Shown here in pieces: positions 52,381-59,925 of a stretch of 64,000 bases of DNA; position 1 is the first letter of the stretch, and each line of letters opens with the position of its first letter. The notes under the pieces were generated by a model. The model did not search any database and had not been told where the DNA came from. It worked only from the letters and a program-made list of their open reading frames with translations. Source of the stretch: Eubacterium limosum (GTDB lineage: Bacteria > Bacillota > Clostridia > Eubacteriales > Eubacteriaceae); contig NZ_CP019962.1 of assembly GCF_000807675.2 (NCBI RefSeq), positions 3,693,157-3,757,156 on the forward strand. Direction: 5' to 3'. The position numbers and the translations under genes are program-made.

Positions 52381-52413
52381 CTGCGGAACCCTTTAAAACA
52401 GAGGGTTCTGCAG
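52381..52413 (+). terminator. Hairpin after the TIGR03936 gene
   Basis: CTGCGGAACCCT (52381-52392) pairs with AGGGTTCTGCAG (52402-52413) with one mismatch. The T-run is weak, but the position between the operon and the next promoter fits a terminator. Confidence 0.6.
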
Positions 52414-52436
52414 TAATTTACCACTTTAATGTGCAC

Positions 52437-52502
52437 GTTTACAAAACTGTTACGTTTTGTTTACGAAAAAACCGTTTACAAAGGTTGAAATCGTGGTATA
52501 AT
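52437..52502 (+). promoter_or_regulatory. Promoter of long RNA A with TTTACA/GTTAC repeats
   Basis: TTTACA (52475-52480) and TATAAT (52497-52502), spacer 16. Upstream direct repeats: GTTTACA (52437-52443), GTTACG (52449-52454), GTTTACG (52459-52465). The promoter of long RNA B (59197-59252) has the same arrangement, so one regulator may bind both; an OmpR-type response regulator is encoded between them. Confidence 0.7.
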
Positions 52503-52508
52503 ATAGAC

Positions 52509-53159
52509 AAATCAAAGATCAAAGAAACATCAGTAATCTTTGAAAGGTCTTTAACAAGTGAATAGAAGCTCAGCTTTGGTAATGAAAATCAAAAAGGTGA
52601 TTATTGAAAATAGGCTGTATCAACACCTAAAAGAAGTAAACCCCAAAAGATTTTTATTAGAAGTATGAAAAAAAGGAAAACCAAAAATATCCATAATAAG
52701 ATGTTGATGCAATAAGTCAATAATCGGAACAAGATGTTAATGGTCGAATGGAATTTCAGAATTTAATAAACCCTAAGATAACAACAATCTAATGGTATCA
52801 CTTGCTGGCTTGAAAAGTACATAAGTAGAAAATCAGATAGGGCATAGCCTAAAGCTGGAGGAGTACACGACTTATAGCATATAGAGACTTAAGCGTCGAA
52901 GAATCCATGGAGTAGGTGATATTACATAAACGTGTTCCATATCAAAAAGGATTTTGAACGTGTAACCCAGTAAAGGACTGTAAGGATCGCAAGTTGAGGA
53001 ACTATTCAAAAAGATATAGAGATACTGAATGAAAAATTTGATATTTGGTTTAAAGATTCGAAAGGAGTGAGTCCAAAAGACATGCTAACTGAATCTGAAC
53101 GCTAAGACCGGTTTTACAGAAACGCCGAAACGAAGTAGAACTGGTCTTAGTTATTTTTT
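52509..53159 (+). ncRNA. Long structured non-coding RNA A (about 650 nt)
   Basis: Starts downstream of a strong promoter and ends at a terminator whose 12-bp stem is CTAAGACCGGTT (53102-53113) / AACTGGTCTTAG (53139-53150) followed by TTATTTTTT. It has no significant reading frame. It shares with the RNA at 59259 the 5' start (ATATAGAYAAATCAAAGATCAA), the loop AGCATATAGAG (52876-52886) inside the stem ACG-CTT/AAG-CGT, and the 3' block GGAGTGAGTCC ... GACATGCTAAC ... GAACGCTA. Stems differ between copies by compensatory changes. Size and complexity are those of OLE/ROOL/GOLLD-type RNAs; which, if any, is not decided. Confidence 0.8.
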
Positions 53160-53249
53160 GAAGCCAAACCTAATTTCTATGTGAAATTGGTGGGCTTTTT
53201 TTATTTTCATTCTTTTTTAAAAAATATTCCAAATAATTTAAAAAAATGC

Positions 53250-53308
53250 TTGACAAATCTATATGTAACAAATATAATTACAGTATAAACAGTAACAAAA
53301 AAAGTTAC
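53250..53308 (+). promoter_or_regulatory. Consensus promoter of the repeat-peptide gene with GTTAC sites
   Basis: TTGACA (53250-53255), 17 bases, TATAAT (53273-53278): a perfect sigma-A promoter. GTAAC at 53265-53269 (spacer), 53292-53296 and its inverse GTTAC at 53304-53308 form an inverted repeat just after the start site. The same pentamer occurs in the promoters of both long RNAs. Confidence 0.75.
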
Positions 53309-53365
53309 GAATTAATCAGAAAGACAATTACCGTAAAATTTAAAAAAGTTGAAGGAGTAAGAGAA

Positions 53366-53926
53366 ATGAGATCACAGGAAGAAAAATTGTATGCAAACCC
53401 GTTATTGGACGAAAACGCAGTAGACAAGGCACCAGGCGCCGGCTACCACAACCCGCTTCAGGAATCCAGAGAGTCCAGAAATGAAGAGGCTGTTCTGGCA
53501 AGCTGCAAATGCAAGAAGAATGACCCGAACGATATGGCGCCAGAAGCGCCAGCTGAAGAAAAAACTGTCAGTGAAGTGAAGGCTGAAATGTACGCAAACC
53601 CGTTATTGGACGAAAATGCAGTAGACAAAGCGCCAGGCGCCGGCTACCACAACCCGCTTCAGGAATCCAGAGAGTCCAGAAATGAAGAGGCTGTTCTGGC
53701 AAGCTGCAAATGCAAGAAGAATGACCCAAACGATATGGCGCCAGAAGCGCCAGCTGAAGAAAAAACTGTCAGTGAAGTGAAGGCTGAAATGTACGCCAAT
53801 CCGTTATTGGACGAAAACGCAGTAGACAAAGCACCAGGCGCCGGCTACCACAATCCGCTTCAGGAATCCAGAGAATCCAGAAATGAAGAGGCTGTTCTGG
53901 CAAGCTGTAAGTGCAAGAAAAATTAA
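53366..53926 (+). CDS. Three-repeat peptide with CKC motif (candidate multi-unit precursor)
   Basis: A 186-residue protein. ATG at 53366 follows GAAGGAG; longer frames upstream overlap the promoter. After an MRSQEEKL start it consists of three identical repeats: YANPLLDENAVDKAPGAGYH, NPLQESRESRNEEAVLASCK, then CKKN. Repeats 1 and 2 carry a 23-residue acidic linker (DPNDMAPEAPAEEKTVSEVK and AEM). There is no signal peptide and almost no hydrophobic stretch. Each repeat ends with Cys-Lys-Cys-Lys-Lys-Asn. DNA differences between repeats are all silent. Downstream lie an ABC exporter and two-component system. It could be a multi-copy peptide precursor or a metal/thiol protein; family not recognised. 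Confidence 0.7.
   Translation: MRSQEEKLYANPLLDENAVDKAPGAGYHNPLQESRESRNEEAVLASCKCKKNDPNDMAPEAPAEEKTVSEVKAEMYANPLLDENAVDKAPGAGYHNPLQESRESRNEEAVLASCKCKKNDPNDMAPEAPAEEKTVSEVKAEMYANPLLDENAVDKAPGAGYHNPLQESRESRNEEAVLASCKCKKN
53390..53923 (+). repeat. 201-bp tandem repeats in the peptide gene
   Basis: Units start at 53390, 53591 and 53792 (last one is 132 bp). Between units 1 and 2 I count 5 changes, and between 2 and 3 nine in the shared part, every one silent. Copies are therefore kept identical in protein by selection or recent exchange. Confidence 0.92.
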
Positions 53927-53933
53927 TCAGAAT

Positions 53934-53990
53934 AATCGAAAACGCCCAAAGCTATTTGAAAAAACAGTTTTGGGCGTTTTCGATTTTCAA
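53934..53990 (+). terminator. Strong intrinsic terminator after the peptide gene
   Basis: AATCGAAAACGCCCAAA (53934-53950) pairs perfectly over 17 bp with TTTGGGCGTTTTCGATT (53969-53985), then TTC. It separates the peptide gene from the transporter operon, allowing much higher expression of the peptide. Confidence 0.9.
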
Positions 53991-54066
53991 AATTCTTTGG
54001 CACTTTAGGATTTTTTAATAACTTTCCGTCTATACTAAGGGCATCACTTAAGAGAGAGGTGTCAAT

Positions 54067-56448
54067 TTGTTTTTCAAAATTTTCAAAAATGACCTGAGAA
54101 AAAAGAAAACCACCAATATTGTGCTGCTGGTTTTTATTGCTCTGGCCTCCATGCTGGCGGCAGGGAGCATGAACCTCATGTTCACAACAACCACAGCGCT
54201 GAATTATTTCTTTGAGACGGCCAAAATATCGGATGCTGGCTTCACCATAAGCTATCCAAAAGAAACAGAAGCGGCAATGACCGATAAAATACAGCAGTGG
54301 GCCGAAGACAGCCCAATCATTACAGATTATCAAAATGCCCGGGTGATCAGTATAAAGCCCGAGGAACTTATTTTTACCGGCGATGCCTCTGAAAAAGAAG
54401 TCTCCTCATCCACAATGCTTTATCTCCAGACCATTCCGGAGGACATGAATCTCGTCTTTAACGAGCAGGACACACGCTTTACGCTCAACCCCGGTGAGAT
54501 CGCCATTCCGGTATACTTGAAAAGCCAATGTGAACTGGAACTGGGCGACACCGTAAAGGTAAGGATTGGGAAAACGGAGAAAGATTTCCGCATCAGGGCC
54601 TTTACAAAGGACGCCGCCTGGGGAGCTTCCATGGTCGGTGTAAAAAGGCTCATGGTATCTGACAGCGATTTTGAGCTTCTGAGGCAATACTCAGAGGACA
54701 GCGGCCAAATGCAGGGAAGCCTGCTTTCTGTGCAGACCACCCCGGGGACCAGGGACACAGATCTTTTTACCAGCTACAGTGACGCAGGACTGCCGGATGT
54801 GGGCAACCTGACCAAAGAGCTGGTACGCGTAGCCTATATGGCTGTGGATGGCGTTGTGGCGGCTTTTCTGTTTCTGGTCTGTGTTTTTCTGATAGCCATT
54901 AGTTTTTTGATTTTACGTTTCACCATTGTCTCGGCAGTGGAGGACGATTATCGCGAAATCGGCGTCATGAAGGCCCTTGGCTTTAAAAACCACCAGATCA
55001 GGCGGCTGTACCTTTCAAAATACATTATTCTCTCTGCTACGGCGGGGCTGGCCGGTTTTCTGCTCAGTATTCCTTTTGTTCGCTATATGTCCAAAAGCAT
55101 CTCTGAATCTCTGATCATACCTCAAAATGGTTCAGGCATAATTATGGCAGCGCTCGGGGCTGCGCTGGTCATCGGCACAACCCTTCTGTTCTGTCTGATC
55201 TGTCTGAGGCGGCTTGCCAGAATCTCACCCATCGACGCTATCCGCCAGGGCAGTACAGGGGAACGCTTTAAACCTGTTGGGCGGAGTGTCCTGTACCGCA
55301 GAAAGAAAATGCCACCAGTGGTGTTTATGGCCGTAAACGATCTTCTGTCTCGTTTCAAGAGCTATACGGTACTGGCCATCACCTTTATGCTCTGCATCGC
55401 AGTGATGATTATTCCGCTCAATCTCCGGCATTTTATTACAGGCACAGAAATGATGACTTACCTTGGTATGAGTGGCGGTGACTTTTATGTCGCCGGCAGC
55501 AATACCTATATGGATACATCGGATATTGAGTCCATGCGCCAATCCATGGAAACGGAGCTTAGAAAGGATATCCCCGGGCTTGAGCTGCAGAGCGAGTATA
55601 TTTCCCCGGTTAAAATCAGTACAGACGATGAAAAAACAAAGGAAACCGTCAGCGAAACCATGATGGCCTGGCCCCTGGATCAGTATTCCTATACAAAGGG
55701 GACAGCGCCGAGGCTGGACAATGAGGTTGCCCTCACCGAAAGCATTGCAAAACGCTATGGCAAAACGGTTGGAAATACCATACGGATCACAACCGATGGA
55801 CAGGCGGAAAGGGATTTTATCATTACAGGCCTGTACAACAGCGGCATGAATCTTGGGAATGTGCTGCGCTTGGGGCCGGATAACACCCTCAAACAGGGTT
55901 ATAATGTGAACTTTGTGGGAAAGATGCCCACAGGGGACCACGAAACCATGGTCAATACCTTAAAGGAAAACCATAAGGATCTGAAAGTTATGAGTCCGGC
56001 CGACTACTCAGCCCAGTACAGCGGCGGCTTTGCAGACCAGCTCAACACCATTGTCCTGATCGTTCTGATGATCATCGCCCTCATTGTATTCCTGATCACC
56101 GCCCTGTTTATCCGCCTGAGGATTCTGGAACAAAAGCAGAGTATTGCCATCATGAGGAGCAGCGGCTTTTGTATCGCTCAGATTAAAACCGGACTGGCAC
56201 TTCAGGTATTTCTGGTGCTGGCGGCCTCAGCCGTTGTGGGAAGTATTCTTTCCGGCGTCTTTGGAGAACCGATGATGAACGGCCTGTTCAGCCTCTTTGG
56301 CGTTGGGGGACACATCAGCTTTAACGGAAACTTTTTTGAAATCTATATTCTTTGCCCGCTGTCGCTTTTAGTGGTGGTAATGACGGCTGTATTCACCGGC
56401 TGCGGCAAAATCAAACAGATCCATATCTGGGATATTACAGGAGAATAG
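54067..56448 (+). CDS. FtsX-like ABC permease, two-domain type
   Basis: A 793-residue permease with two FtsX-like units. N-terminal helix (about 15-35), an outside domain of some 200 residues, three helices around 255-375 (with VEDDYREIGVMKALGFKNHQIRRLYL coupling loop), a helix near 425-445, a second outside domain, and three helices at 650-785 (QKQSIAIMRSSGFCIAQIKTGL). TTG at 54067 follows GAGAGAGGTG. This is a MacB/BceAB-like arrangement for peptide efflux or resistance, coupled to the ATPase (stop and start one base apart) and two-component system. A probable role is export or sensing of the CKC peptide or of an antimicrobial. Confidence 0.85.
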   Translation: MFFKIFKNDLRKKKTTNIVLLVFIALASMLAAGSMNLMFTTTTALNYFFETAKISDAGFTISYPKETEAAMTDKIQQWAEDSPIITDYQNARVISIKPEELIFTGDASEKEVSSSTMLYLQTIPEDMNLVFNEQDTRFTLNPGEIAIPVYLKSQCELELGDTVKVRIGKTEKDFRIRAFTKDAAWGASMVGVKRLMVSDSDFELLRQYSEDSGQMQGSLLSVQTTPGTRDTDLFTSYSDAGLPDVGNLTKELVRVAYMAVDGVVAAFLFLVCVFLIAISFLILRFTIVSAVEDDYREIGVMKALGFKNHQIRRLYLSKYIILSATAGLAGFLLSIPFVRYMSKSISESLIIPQNGSGIIMAALGAALVIGTTLLFCLICLRRLARISPIDAIRQGSTGERFKPVGRSVLYRRKKMPPVVFMAVNDLLSRFKSYTVLAITFMLCIAVMIIPLNLRHFITGTEMMTYLGMSGGDFYVAGSNTYMDTSDIESMRQSMETELRKDIPGLELQSEYISPVKISTDDEKTKETVSETMMAWPLDQYSYTKGTAPRLDNEVALTESIAKRYGKTVGNTIRITTDGQAERDFIITGLYNSGMNLGNVLRLGPDNTLKQGYNVNFVGKMPTGDHETMVNTLKENHKDLKVMSPADYSAQYSGGFADQLNTIVLIVLMIIALIVFLITALFIRLRILEQKQSIAIMRSSGFCIAQIKTGLALQVFLVLAASAVVGSILSGVFGEPMMNGLFSLFGVGGHISFNGNFFEIYILCPLSLLVVVMTAVFTGCGKIKQIHIWDITGE

Positions 56449-56449
56449 C

Positions 56450-57205
56450 ATGAAAACATTACTTAAGGTAAAGGACCTCTGTAAAACTTATATTGTCAAT
56501 AAGCAGCAGAACAATGTGCTGCGCAACGTGAACATGAGCATTGGGGAAGGAGAGTATACCGCGGTGATGGGACCTTCCGGATCCGGGAAATCCACGCTGC
56601 TCTACACTGTAAGCGGCATGGACAGGCTCACAGCCGGAGAAATATTTTTCGACGGAAAAAGCCTGTCCGAAATGAAGGAGGAGGTCATGGCCTCTCTCAG
56701 ACTGACAGAGATGGGGTTTATCTTCCAGCAGATGTACCTTTTGAAAAATCTCTCTATTTATGATAATATCATCTTATCTGCCTATATGGCGAATAAGCGC
56801 AGCCGGTCCGAGATAAACACCGATGCTGACGCGCTTATGAAGCAGCTTGGTATCATGGAGCTGGCCGATAATGATATTTCTGAAACCTCAGGCGGCCAGC
56901 TTCAGCGGGCCTGTATCTGCCGCGCGCTCATCAACCGGCCAAAGATTCTCTTTGCCGATGAACCCACAGGGGCTCTGAACTCAAGAGCCGCTCAGGAGGT
57001 GATGAATGTGCTGGATCAGGTCAATGCCCAGGGAACCGCCCTCATGGTGGTCACCCACGATCCAGCTGTGGCTGCCCGGGCCGACCGGGTGTTTTATATA
57101 AGAGATGGGAATATCAATGGTGAATACGATCCGGCAAAGACAGCTAACGATCCCAGAGAAAGGGAACGCGGCCTGAACCAGTGGCTTATGGACATGGGGT
57201 GGTAA
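56450..57205 (+). CDS. ABC transporter ATP-binding protein (MacB/BceA type)
   Basis: A 251-residue ATPase. Walker A GPSGSGKST (41-49), Q-loop FIFQQMYLLKN, signature ETSGGQLQRACICRAL (LSGGQ replaced by TSGGQ), Walker B ILFADEPTGALN and switch His in VTHDPAVAARADRV. It is of the LolD/MacB class that pairs with FtsX-like permeases. The signature variant is common in the BceA group. ATG at 56450 is one base after the permease stop. Powers the preceding permease. Confidence 0.92.
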   Translation: MKTLLKVKDLCKTYIVNKQQNNVLRNVNMSIGEGEYTAVMGPSGSGKSTLLYTVSGMDRLTAGEIFFDGKSLSEMKEEVMASLRLTEMGFIFQQMYLLKNLSIYDNIILSAYMANKRSRSEINTDADALMKQLGIMELADNDISETSGGQLQRACICRALINRPKILFADEPTGALNSRAAQEVMNVLDQVNAQGTALMVVTHDPAVAARADRVFYIRDGNINGEYDPAKTANDPRERERGLNQWLMDMGW

Positions 57206-57229
57206 AATACGAAAAACAAAGGAGGGCGT

Positions 57230-57913
57230 ATGGCAAGGGATATTCTGCTCATTGAAGACGACAGGTCTCTGGGAGCTGTGATAAAAGACTTTTTGGAAAG
57301 AGAGGGCTATCTGGTACAGTGGTGCACCACCGGGGAGGAAGGTTTAACTTTTCTTGAGCACACAGCCGTAAAACTGGTGCTGCTGGACATTATGCTGCCA
57401 GACATCGACGGCTTTACTGTGTGCACGAAAATCCGGAGCACCCAGAGCCTGCCAGTGATCATTATCAGCGCCCGAAGCGGTGACGATGACCAGATTACAG
57501 GCCTTAACCTGGGCGCAGACGATTATATGGGCAAGCCCTTTTCCATCGGCCTGCTCCTGGCTAAAATAAAATCACAGCTCCGCCGCAGTTATGGGAAACA
57601 GGCGGAAACTCCTTTCTTGCGGGATAAAGACCTGGTGGTTGACACCGCATCACGCACCGTATGTCTGAATGAAACGCCCATCAGTCTGACGGTTAAGGAA
57701 TATGAGCTTCTGGTACTGCTTTTGGAAAACGCCGGCAAAACACTGCAGAAGGACTGGCTTTTTGACATGGTATGGGGCGTGGACTGCTTCAGTGAGCCTT
57801 CCACCTTAACCGTCCATATTGGCAAGCTCCGCGAAAAGATTGAGGCCGATCCCAAAAAGCCCAGGCGTATCAAAACAGTCTGGGGGGTAGGCTACCGCTA
57901 TGAGACGCTATAG
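57230..57913 (+). CDS. OmpR-family response regulator
   Basis: A 227-residue regulator. The receiver has Asp9/Asp11 region ILLIEDD, phosphoacceptor Asp53 (LVLLDIMLPDIDGF) and Lys102 (DYMGKPFS). The C-terminal winged helix reads PISLTVKEYELLVLLLENAGKTLQKDWLFDMVWG... RIKTVWGVGYRYE. Such regulators bind direct repeats ahead of target promoters; the TTTACA/GTTAC repeats at 52437, 53265 and 59197 are candidates. ATG at 57230 follows AGGAGG. The kinase gene overlaps its end by 14 bases. Confidence 0.93.
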   Translation: MARDILLIEDDRSLGAVIKDFLEREGYLVQWCTTGEEGLTFLEHTAVKLVLLDIMLPDIDGFTVCTKIRSTQSLPVIIISARSGDDDQITGLNLGADDYMGKPFSIGLLLAKIKSQLRRSYGKQAETPFLRDKDLVVDTASRTVCLNETPISLTVKEYELLVLLLENAGKTLQKDWLFDMVWGVDCFSEPSTLTVHIGKLREKIEADPKKPRRIKTVWGVGYRYETL

Positions 57914-59177
57914 GCTTCTGATCCTCACGCTGATTCTGGGCGGGATTGCCGCGGTTTTATTTTTGATCTCACAGACACAGCTTCATTTCGAGCAGAGCAG
58001 CCGTGAATATCTTGTAGAAATCAACCGTCTGACAAACGCTCTTTCCATGGACGATGACAGCGCCGGCGCGCTGCTCCCGCAGATGAAGCGGGTAAAAAAC
58101 TATGACTGGCTGCCAGCTGTGGCTGATGCGCAGGAAATATCGGCATTTTTCTCCGGTGCAGGCATGGTTAAGGATTACAAGGTCATGCCCATTTACCGCG
58201 GCGGCACTTTATCCGGCTATGCCCGGTTCGCCTACACGCCAGAACAGGACAGCCTTTACCTCCTTGTAAAGACTGCCGCCCTCTCCGTGGCACTGATCAC
58301 GCTGGCCGCTGTGGGTATGCTTATCTATGTGGAGCGGAAAATACTAAAGCCCTTTAACCGGGCTTCAAGGCTTCCTGAAGAGCTGGCAAAGGGAAAGCTG
58401 GGTGAAGGACTGAAAGAGGAAAAAAACCGGTATTTCGGCCGTTTTATCTGGGGACTAGACATGCTGCGTGAGGCTCTCAGCGATGAAAGGCAGAAGCGCC
58501 TGAGCCTTGAGCGTGACCGTAAAACCCTGGTGGCCTCCCTGTCTCACAATATCCGGACGCCACTGGCCGCTATCCGCCTTTATGCAGGCGCCCTTTACAC
58601 GCATTTATACCAGACACCCGAAAAACAGGAGGAGTGCGCCCACTTAATCGAGGACAAGGCTGTGCAGATCGAGGGATTGGTCAATGAGATTATCAAAAGC
58701 TCCTCGGAAGCCATCAGCGAAGTCCAGATCAATAACCGGGATTTCTATATTGCTGATTTCATGCGAGAGATCAGGAACAGCCTGACCGCCCAGCTGGAGC
58801 AGCGTCATATTCTTTTTACGATGAGCTGTGATGAGAACCGGCTGGTACATGGAGACCCCGACCGTCTGACAGAGGTGATCGGAAACATTGTGGAAAACGC
58901 TGTAAAATACGGGGACGGCGGCGCGATACAAATCCGGTGCGCACTCGAAGAAGGGCATGAGCTTATCCGTATCCAAAACACTGGAAGGCCTGTAGATGAA
59001 AGCGAGATGGCCAGCCTTTTTAACAGCTTCTGGAGAGGCGCCAATGCGAAGGGCCAGAGTGGAAACGGGCTGGGTCTTTATATCAGCAGATTGTACCTCA
59101 GGCAGATGGAAGGCGAGCTGTCAGCCGAGATTCTTGAAAACGGCATGGCCTTTATACTGGTTCTCAAGATTTCGTAG
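57900..59177 (+). CDS. Sensor histidine kinase
   Basis: A 425-residue membrane kinase. Two helices (about 5-25 and 120-145) enclose an extracytosolic domain of roughly 90 residues. The H-box is SLSHNIRTPLAAIRLY with His216, the N-box is VIGNIVENAVKYGDGG, and the G1/G2 boxes are IRIQNTGRPVDE and QSGNGLGLYISRLYL. ATG at 57900 overlaps the response regulator. Bce-type kinases with tiny sensor domains rely on the permease to detect peptides; this one has a longer sensor and might sense directly. Controls its own operon or the long RNAs by inference. Confidence 0.92.
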   Translation: MRRYRLLILTLILGGIAAVLFLISQTQLHFEQSSREYLVEINRLTNALSMDDDSAGALLPQMKRVKNYDWLPAVADAQEISAFFSGAGMVKDYKVMPIYRGGTLSGYARFAYTPEQDSLYLLVKTAALSVALITLAAVGMLIYVERKILKPFNRASRLPEELAKGKLGEGLKEEKNRYFGRFIWGLDMLREALSDERQKRLSLERDRKTLVASLSHNIRTPLAAIRLYAGALYTHLYQTPEKQEECAHLIEDKAVQIEGLVNEIIKSSSEAISEVQINNRDFYIADFMREIRNSLTAQLEQRHILFTMSCDENRLVHGDPDRLTEVIGNIVENAVKYGDGGAIQIRCALEEGHELIRIQNTGRPVDESEMASLFNSFWRGANAKGQSGNGLGLYISRLYLRQMEGELSAEILENGMAFILVLKIS

Positions 59178-59196
59178 AAATTAAACATTTCTTAAA

Positions 59197-59252
59197 TTTT
59201 ACAAATTAGTTACAAGAAAAACCTTTACATTTCTATGTAATCGTATTATAAT
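59197..59252 (+). promoter_or_regulatory. Promoter of long RNA B with TTTACA/GTTAC repeats
   Basis: TTTACA (59224-59229), 17 bases, TATAAT (59247-59252). Upstream repeats TTTACA (59198-59203) and GTTACA (59209-59214) have the same 12- and about 26-base spacing as at the RNA A promoter. Confidence 0.75.
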
Positions 59253-59258
59253 ATAGAT

Positions 59259-59836
59259 AAATCAAAGATCAAGATCAACAGAAGTTGAAAATGACAGATT
59301 TGGAAGGTCATTGAAAAGTAAATAAGTCCCAACGACCAAGGATTAAACTATAAAGAGCAACAGTGACTTACTCGGAAACAATAATTCATTATAAAACAGT
59401 AGGGCACGTTAATCATATATTTTGATCATAATTATTTAACACAAATTATCGTTAATGTTTCGGTTGAGTGAAGAATTGAAACGGATAATCGAAAGTAATT
59501 TAGTAGGTAACCTTAAAGAGTGTGAAGACAAATCTGAAGGACAATGAGTATTACATTTACAGCATATAGAGTCTTAAATGTGAAAGTTGTTGAGTAAGGC
59601 GTCTCGCAAAGATAAATAATAAAAGATAGACACAGGATGCACTGAAAAATACGAGTAGAGGATTACAATTGAATAGGGAATAAGGTTGGGATGGTGTTTA
59701 CTTAACAACAGAAGAAGATTTTGAAATTTGAAAATCAATTGAAGGGAGTGAGTCCGAAAGACATGCTAACCGAGATTGAACGCTAGAGCCGATTTGCCAG
59801 AAGTCATAAAGAGCAGATCGGTTCTAGTTATTTTTT
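59259..59836 (+). ncRNA. Long structured non-coding RNA B (about 580 nt)
   Basis: Paralogue of the RNA at 52509. It shares the 5' start, AGCATATAGAG (59561-59571) in the perfect stem ACATTT (59553-59558) / AAATGT (59576-59581), and the 3' block GGAGTGAGTCC ... GACATGCTAAC. It ends with a 15-bp stem CTAGAGCCGATTTGC (59783-59797) / GCAGATCGGTTCTAG (59813-59827) and TTATTTTTT. The shared elements are surrounded by sequence with little similarity, so the fold rather than the sequence is kept. No reading frame of note. No OapA-like gene is adjacent, which argues against OLE. Confidence 0.8.
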
Positions 59837-59925
59837 GTGCTTTCTTTTGGACTTAGGCGCTTGTCAAAAAAATTAATTTATGGTAAGGTTATCTCTGGAA
59901 TTTTTTAAATACAAAGGAGATTATC

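Follow-up and report, generated by a model that had tools for sequence, protein, structure and literature searches.

The 64,000-nucleotide (nt) stretch of Eubacterium limosum DNA analysed here (contig NZ_CP019962.1, positions 3,693,157 to 3,757,156), referred to below as the window, contains two long RNA units, RNA A and RNA B, on the same strand at both ends of a cassette of genes for a peptide, a transporter and a two-component system. Both were found exactly where a preliminary description of this DNA had placed them (Table 1). It had regarded them as paralogues, and they do agree in promoter type and 5' end, in an internal motif, and in the 3' block and the layout of the terminator: the promoter is TTTACA-16/17-TATAAT, the first 14 nt are AAATCAAAGATCAA and the internal motif is AGCATATAGAG. 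Elsewhere the two RNAs are little alike, as had also been noted; apart from short matches near the 5' end, blastn aligned only about 100 nt, at 76%. Folding was better than that of dinucleotide shuffles for RNA A (z -5.2, 0 of 20 shuffles better) as well as for RNA B (z -4.7, 0 of 100). From promoter and terminator, transcription of both units is predicted. The 3' block of each RNA encloses a frame of eight codons (seven residues and a stop), which the preliminary description had missed.

We compared the RNAs with known classes. The suspicion that they lie outside the described families was borne out for Rfam 15: the covariance-model scan gave no gathering match in the window, and at E values up to 5 none of the nine matches in 52400-59900 fell inside RNA A or RNA B. 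Likewise, 15 loci of relatives gave no gathering match, and 20 loci from another bacterial order, the second order described below, gave none at E<=0.01. OLE, ROOL, GOLLD and other large Rfam families were rejected on these grounds. Transfer-messenger RNA, which combines a tRNA-like domain with a tag open reading frame (ORF), was rejected since ARAGORN found none in the window, and a phage origin because RNA A had no match among 50,697 phage records. No published description of the family was recognised in a literature search, which reached neither subscription journals nor supplements.

The 3' module and its reading frame

Among the members of the RNA family conservation is strongest in GAARGGRGTGAGTCC, 5' of the terminator. 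The conserved 3' module consists of a Shine-Dalgarno (SD)-like 15-mer, GAAAGGGGUGAGUCC, a start codon with 4-9 further codons, and a stop codon at the base of an intrinsic terminator, in or beside its 5' arm, so that the frame comprises 5-10 codons. This module was found in two bacterial orders; starts are mostly ATG or GTG, ORF lengths differ by whole codons and the peptides vary. A whole-codon insertion is seen between the paralogues MTTEILD and MTTEEILD.

We determined in which frame the first stop coincides with the terminator base. In a first set (n=49), with the start (ATG) picked blind to stops, this was the case 42 times in frame 0 versus 1 and 9 times in the other frames. In a second set (n=53) the numbers were 32 in frame 0 versus 6 and 11. 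For both sets the stem position is heuristic, and the sequences are related and do not represent independent events. Among 82 compiled members, 32 of which were extracted on condition of a stop, 75 ORFs encode 7 residues, three encode 8, two encode 5, and one each 6 and 10; the stop codons are TGA (34), TAG (27) and TAA (21). Eight of 40 fetched loci (L161-L165, L173, L193, L195) had been dropped before this count. The second order contributed 53 distinct members after removal of L228 and duplicate loci, with ATG as start in 30, GTG in 17 and other codons in 6, and with lengths of 5-10. In 48 of them an automatic check placed a terminator stem at the stop. The anatomy of the module is well supported, and from this comparative evidence we infer that the mini-ORF is translated.

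The SD-like sequence is unusually strong. The duplex between the consensus 15-mer and the 16S 3' tail of the same genome comprises 14 bp and has an energy of -19.2 kcal/mol, which none of 2000 shuffles reached; the corresponding energies are -17.1 kcal/mol for RNA A and -16.8 kcal/mol for RNA B. The median over 77 full-length members was -20.6 kcal/mol, with 76 of the 77 reaching -12, compared to a median of -10.05 and a strongest value of -17.0 for 42 ORFs of at least 150 amino acids in the window, for each of which the best of several starts was taken. In 44 of the 53 second-order members a GGYG-N4-CRCC hairpin lies over the SD; it would shorten the distance between SD and start codon. Two paralogues carry an AGGAGG-type SD at ordinary spacing (L120, MTIVFES; L133, MIGVIQN). 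In four loci (L257, L258, L261, L269) a motif resembling the SD hairpin, e.g. GAAGGGAATGAGTCCACCA, occurs twice, the upstream copy without a clear ORF.

Table 1. Features of RNA A, RNA B and the cassette between them (positions in the window)
Feature	Position	Strand	Basis
RNA A, about 651 nt; T-run of terminator ends at 53159	52509-53159	+	sequence, comparison with RNA B, folding
RNA B, about 578 nt	59259-59836	+	sequence, comparison with RNA A, folding
Direct repeats GTTTACA/GTTACG/GTTTACG, 5' of RNA A promoter	52437-52465	+	
RNA A promoter TTTACA-16-TATAAT, counterparts in other members	52475-52502	+	
Closing helix P1, 5' strand, RNA A	52509-52523	+	folding, permutation tests
boxA-like GGTCTTTAACAA, RNA A	52546-52557	+	
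Internal hairpin motif ACTTATAGCATATAGAGACTTAAG, RNA A	52870-52893	+	
Closing helix P1, 3' strand, RNA A	53037-53051	+	folding, shuffle test
SD-like 15-mer GAAAGGAGTGAGTCC, RNA A, complementary to 16S 3' tail	53060-53074	+	
Mini-ORF A, MLTESER and stop	53082-53105	+	
RNA A intrinsic terminator, stop codon inside 5' arm	53102-53159	+	
Direct repeats 5' of RNA B promoter	59197-59214	+	
RNA B promoter TTTACA-17-TATAAT	59224-59252	+	
boxA GGTCATTGAAAA, RNA B	59306-59317	+	
Internal hairpin motif CATTTACAGCATATAGAGTCTTAAATG, RNA B	59554-59580	+	
Closing helix P1, 3' strand, RNA B	59717-59731	+	folding, shuffle test
SD-like 15-mer GAAGGGAGTGAGTCC, RNA B	59741-59755	+	
Mini-ORF B, MLTEIER and stop	59763-59786	+	
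RNA B intrinsic terminator, stop codon inside 5' arm	59783-59836	+	
Threefold-repeat peptide gene (cassette context, outside the RNA family)	53366-53926	+	
FtsX/MacB-type permease (context)	54067-56448	+	
LolD-like ABC ATPase (context)	56450-57205	+	
OmpR-type response regulator (context)	57230-57913	+	
Sensor histidine kinase (context)	57900-59177	+	

Closing helix, boxA and RNA bodies

The preliminary description had made its case depend on a conserved fold beyond the terminators. Such a fold is present: the 5' end of the RNAs (AAUCAAAGAUC) pairs with the stretch directly 5' of the SD, forming a closing helix (P1) whose two strands coevolve. For 23 representatives the summed energy of the true pairs was below that of all 20,000 partner permutations, and in 39 of 50 members tested individually the helix was beaten by at most 2 of 200 shuffles. 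At several positions pair types change on both sides (74 members, considering only cells paired in the predicted duplex); a single alignment of all 77 full-length ends was spoiled by outliers. A helix formed by the bases beside the 15-mer alone, which folds had suggested, was dropped because its register differs between copies, and was replaced by the 5'-3' helix.

Near the 5' end a boxA-like element was found in 40 of the 77 full-length members, and its presence follows RNA length: it occurs in none of 20 RNAs below 330 nt, in 2 of 9 between 330 and 420 nt and in 38 of 48 longer ones, the rate of the pattern in shuffled sequences being 1.9%. This correlation is what would be expected if boxA shields long untranslated RNA from Rho. 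The boxA of RNA B comprises the same 12 bases as the boxA in the 16S-23S spacer of two of the four ribosomal RNA (rRNA) operons examined in the same genome (L101, L102). One study reports that the rRNA antitermination complex requires boxA, which is also sufficient for it, and that a leader-trailer helix is essential for 30S formation (PMC10250234). As far as described there, rRNA operon leaders resemble the RNAs studied here in having boxA near the 5' end and a long-range helix through which the two ends of a long, untranslated RNA are joined. Unlike these, the family RNAs contain no rRNA, the 5' strand of P1 precedes boxA, and they end in SD, mini-ORF and intrinsic terminator.

Outside these elements the body shows little conservation, and its size ranges from none to about 1 kb. 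In two members (L222, L225) it is missing and a -10 box lies 16 nt 5' of the module, suggesting that an RNA of about 100 nt suffices. The motif core GCRTATMGAG is present in 14 of the 77 full-length members; it forms a hairpin loop in the bodies of L098 (twice) and 13 others and may be a protein-binding module. In one Acetobacterium RNA with a body of about 1 kb (L093, 3081-3136) short 22-nt repeats were noticed, which may explain body growth; the program TRF found short arrays only. The comparison in size with large ornate RNAs made in the preliminary description misses the core, which is the constant mini-ORF module and not the variable body.

Distribution and genomic neighbourhood

The genome of the window holds three copies, namely RNA A, RNA B and one at C1:46320-46426; a fourth, weak match is the opposite strand of the third copy. 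Within the host family, 25 of 40 genomes contain the 3' 15-mer and 0 of 40 a reversed control pattern. When 84,980 species were scanned for a pattern that also requires ATG and GA at codon 4, 32 stretches were obtained from Acetobacterium species, Eubacterium callanderi, E. barkeri, E. aggregans, Clostridium aminobutyricum and several metagenome-assembled genomes. One of the 44 places of the 15-mer (L058) and one stretch of the scan (L089) lack the module and were dropped. Four loci (L112, L113, L115, L116) were rejected on inspection and dropped together with the uninspected L114, and L132 is a probable false match.

Genomes of genus g3, which named loci with the same sequences indicate to be Acetobacterium, carry 1-8 R2 matches each, except for one with none. 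In the order of the host, matches were found in 33 of 67 genomes, three of which (G017, G041, G054) failed on inspection. For C. aminobutyricum the numbers were 30 of 197 genomes in its family (L228 being a non-member) and 59 of 393 in its order, where twenty further loci were inspected and the matches of seven genomes (G583, G646, G654, G768, G780, G793, G821) were left uninspected. We treat this group as a second order since its genomes differ from the 67 of the host order. A sample at class level gave 12 of 391 genomes, seven of them in the host family; four of the five weak others were rejected on inspection. The families concerned we take, partly by assumption, to be Eubacteriaceae and Anaerovoracaceae.

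Upstream of the RNAs a further common element was noticed. In four g3 genomes the exact element ACAAACGTTTACA, which is similar to the direct repeats upstream of the RNA A promoter, occurs 13 times and in all 13 cases upstream of family RNAs, as determined by comparing its positions with those of the 21 R2 matches in these genomes. This suggests an element private to the family, likely with a dedicated regulator. A CcpA-like operator and a WalR/PhoP-type box were also considered for the upstream repeats; the 13 of 13 result favours the family-private element.

The preliminary description had tied the RNA pair to the peptide, transporter and two-component cassette. This tie did not hold: at the same place in genome G001 permease, ATPase and both two-component genes are absent and RNA A, peptide gene and RNA B are kept, the absence applying to this place, to which the search of G001 for these genes was confined. 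A remnant of the kinase 3' end lies beside the RNA B promoter there (L010, 2100-3668), suggesting deletion of the cassette genes and not original absence. Neighbours are common only within groups of orthologous copies and not across the family. Within such groups a DUF2344-type gene lies upstream in 12 contexts, and one downstream gene family occurs in 11 and another in 8; in 8 of 15 paralogue loci, and in further loci as well, the gene that follows most closely downstream is encoded on the opposite strand. Given the G001 locus, the third copy elsewhere and this distribution of neighbours, a cassette-linked RNA pair was rejected. The preliminary description was right about the unusual nature of RNA A and RNA B; the cassette is incidental.

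The peptide gene between the RNAs consists of three near-identical units (YANPLLDENAVDKAPGAGYHNPLQESRESRNEEAVLASCKCKKN); it matched nothing in NCBIfam, and its two Pfam matches lay below threshold. Its product is likely the repeat precursor of a peptide. The promoter of this gene, TTGACA-17-TATAAT, overlaps or precedes several GTAAC/GTTAC repeats (53249-53312), which are possibly a site for the response regulator of the cassette. Elsewhere, the third copy in the genome (L122) and the copy L126 are each divergent from one gene, which from its start we take to resemble diadenylate cyclase CdaA. Two short copies from metagenome-assembled genomes (L073, L084) lie downstream of one gene, whose product presumably resembles elongation factor G.

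A possible role in ribosome capture

What might these RNAs do? According to PMC6495379, the 7-codon mccA mRNA is translated repeatedly by one ribosome in vitro with an nrec of 71, which falls to 30 and 6 at 11 and 15 codons, and earlier work is cited there for reiterative translation of ORFs of 2-8 codons. Like the RNAs described here, mccA mRNA as portrayed in that text has a 7-codon ORF, a strong SD and a terminator just 3', with length but not peptide sequence conserved. Since a very short ORF, an extreme SD, a variable peptide and an immediate terminator fit this design, we propose that the family consists of free-standing RNAs which capture ribosomes on a repeatedly translated mini-ORF, an explanation which we consider the best one and to which we give about an even chance. 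Reiterative translation has been demonstrated for mccA, whereas for the RNA family it would follow from sequence features, and the structured body, closing helix, boxA and several paralogues per genome also set the family apart from microcin C. Identity with a microcin C precursor was rejected: a very short ORF with a strong SD is present, but the C-terminal Asn was found in only 6 of 89 distinct peptides, and no MccB-like adenylating enzyme was detected among the eight window proteins scanned, the neighbours of other copies lying outside this hidden Markov model scan.

In the proposed mechanism the essential part would be the 3' mini-gene module with its hyper-strong SD, its ORF of 5-10 residues and an intrinsic terminator starting at the stop codon. 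While the ribosome passes through the 5-10 codons, terminates and starts again, its 16S tail would remain base-paired to the SD; in the second order the SD would usually be closed into a small hairpin that brings it nearer to the start codon. The RNA would thereby hold one ribosome and yield a short peptide, in most cases one that has Glu or Asp around position 4, and might serve the control of ribosome availability or peptide delivery. In the long Eubacteriaceae copies boxA, as a NusB/S10 site, may keep Rho off these long untranslated transcripts; as has been proposed for rRNA, it may also help to bring the two RNA ends together as the closing helix, which would then present the 3' module.

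Several observations weigh against this explanation. The frame-0 stop lies outside the span around the estimated stem base in 7 of 49 members of the first set and 21 of 53 of the second, and a stop within 10-11 codons had been required when the loci L160-L199 and those of the second set were extracted. Six of the 53 second-order members have a non-standard start (GTA 2, ACA 2, GTT 1, ACG 1), which argues against strict conservation of the start codon. The SD core of RNA A and RNA B lies 14 nt away from the ATG, a distance too long for a plain SD, and the hairpin that would shorten it is weak in both. In five members, namely L073, L077, L084 and the second copies of E. barkeri (L080) and E. aggregans (L081), the closing helix was beaten by at least 46 of 200 shuffles. 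Further, boxA-like matches are absent from 10 of the 48 long RNAs, the pattern having been drawn up after members had been inspected, and consensus folding of the bodies of one Acetobacterium group (acC) gave little paired structure in the output examined. Finally, a preference for Glu or Asp in the peptides suggests that the peptide, and not the holding of ribosomes alone, may matter.

This preference leads to an alternative in which the peptide is the product, the family representing the shortest peptide genes (fMet-x-x-Glu, 5-10 residues, intracellular or signals) and the body a regulated leader. Of 89 distinct peptides, 81 carry Glu or Asp within positions 3-5 and 66 have it precisely at position 4 (mean for positions 3-5 in within-peptide shuffles 51.8; 0 of 2000 reach 81), and the residue is kept where its position shifts (MTELNQKR, MLNAEFQ). 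Codon 4 varies silently between GAG and GAA, with a ratio of non-synonymous to synonymous polymorphism (pN/pS) of 0.04, and genomes hold several paralogues with different peptides. Over codons 2-7 of 56 distinct seven-residue ORFs, however, pN/pS is 0.71, which weakens the case for a role at the peptide level; no other residue is conserved, five distinct peptides lack Glu or Asp, and no family-wide constant neighbour would fit as exporter, protease or modifying enzyme. On balance we find this alternative rather unlikely, if worth keeping in mind. A trans-acting regulatory RNA, whose variable body pairs with mRNAs and whose mini-ORF sets stability or timing only, appears more unlikely still. 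RNAIII is a dual-function RNA of this kind, free-standing and with a small ORF, and the seemingly private upstream element and the large clade-specific bodies would suit such a function. Here, in contrast to RNAIII, the ORF has 5-10 codons and lies at the extreme 3' end; moreover, the module exists without a body (L222, L225), and bodies differ strongly between paralogues and genera.

Two further possibilities we hold to be very improbable. If the mini-ORF were the leader peptide of an attenuator, its translation would disturb the terminator and switch on the next gene. The position of the stop codon at the terminator 5' arm, a close same-strand gene downstream of some copies (L109, L122) and the downstream genes shared within orthologous groups are in line with this, but across the family these genes differ and are often on the opposite strand, and the gene after RNA A has its own promoter. 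Without a consistent same-strand downstream gene attenuation was rejected for most copies. An ornate RNA acting by its fold alone, as a cage or scaffold like OLE, ROOL and GOLLD with the mini-ORF as a by-product, has similarly little to recommend it: size, closing helix and better-than-shuffled folding agree with it, whereas the missing Rfam match, the absent or very variable body and the conserved frame do not. These RNAs are likewise several hundred nt long, structured and of unknown function (PMC12286853); here the body is optional and the conserved core is a mini-ORF module. The points counted against each make antisense, attenuation and pure scaffold roles less likely than the capture of ribosomes.

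With regard to classification, genome-wide screens for non-coding RNAs have produced candidate classes of small and upstream ORFs (PMC11109978, PMC6429828). As presented in the accessible texts, these share conserved start and stop codons, SD and terminator with our family, and the small ORFs also lack a tie to one downstream gene. An ORF of 5-10 codons at the 3' end of a large closed RNA is not described there, supplements being outside this comparison, and the main text of PMC11109978 names neither Eubacterium nor Acetobacterium. Start and stop are conserved in frame independently of neighbours, apart from the six second-order members with other starts, and the closing helix shows covariation outside the terminator, in a test that included a minority of the second order. 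The family combines a mini-ORF mRNA with a structured free-standing RNA, both known kinds, and may be a new class.

If the proposal of ribosome capture is true, SD 15-mer, 5-10 codons and stop at the terminator base would together serve as a search rule for the class. Transcription start sites of E. limosum ATCC 8486 have been mapped (PMC5651825), and for A. woodii data on start sites, RNA and ribosome profiling have been published (PMC8407422), so that the prediction may be checked without new cultures. Reiterative translation of mini-ORFs would then extend from one antibiotic operon to a large RNA class, and rRNA-style boxA and end-joining would be used outside rRNA. Protein hibernation factors are a known means of withdrawing ribosomes; the RNAs would give bacteria an RNA-based way to withdraw them from the pool. 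More tentatively, and with some doubt, they might constitute a widespread class in Clostridia for holding ribosomes, in which a dedicated promoter element switches on RNAs that present a near-complete complement to the 16S tail, occupy one ribosome with a gene of 5-10 codons read over and over without end, and in this way adjust the pool of free ribosomes, and to which, in acetogens, an rRNA-like boxA and a helix of the leader-trailer type have been added.

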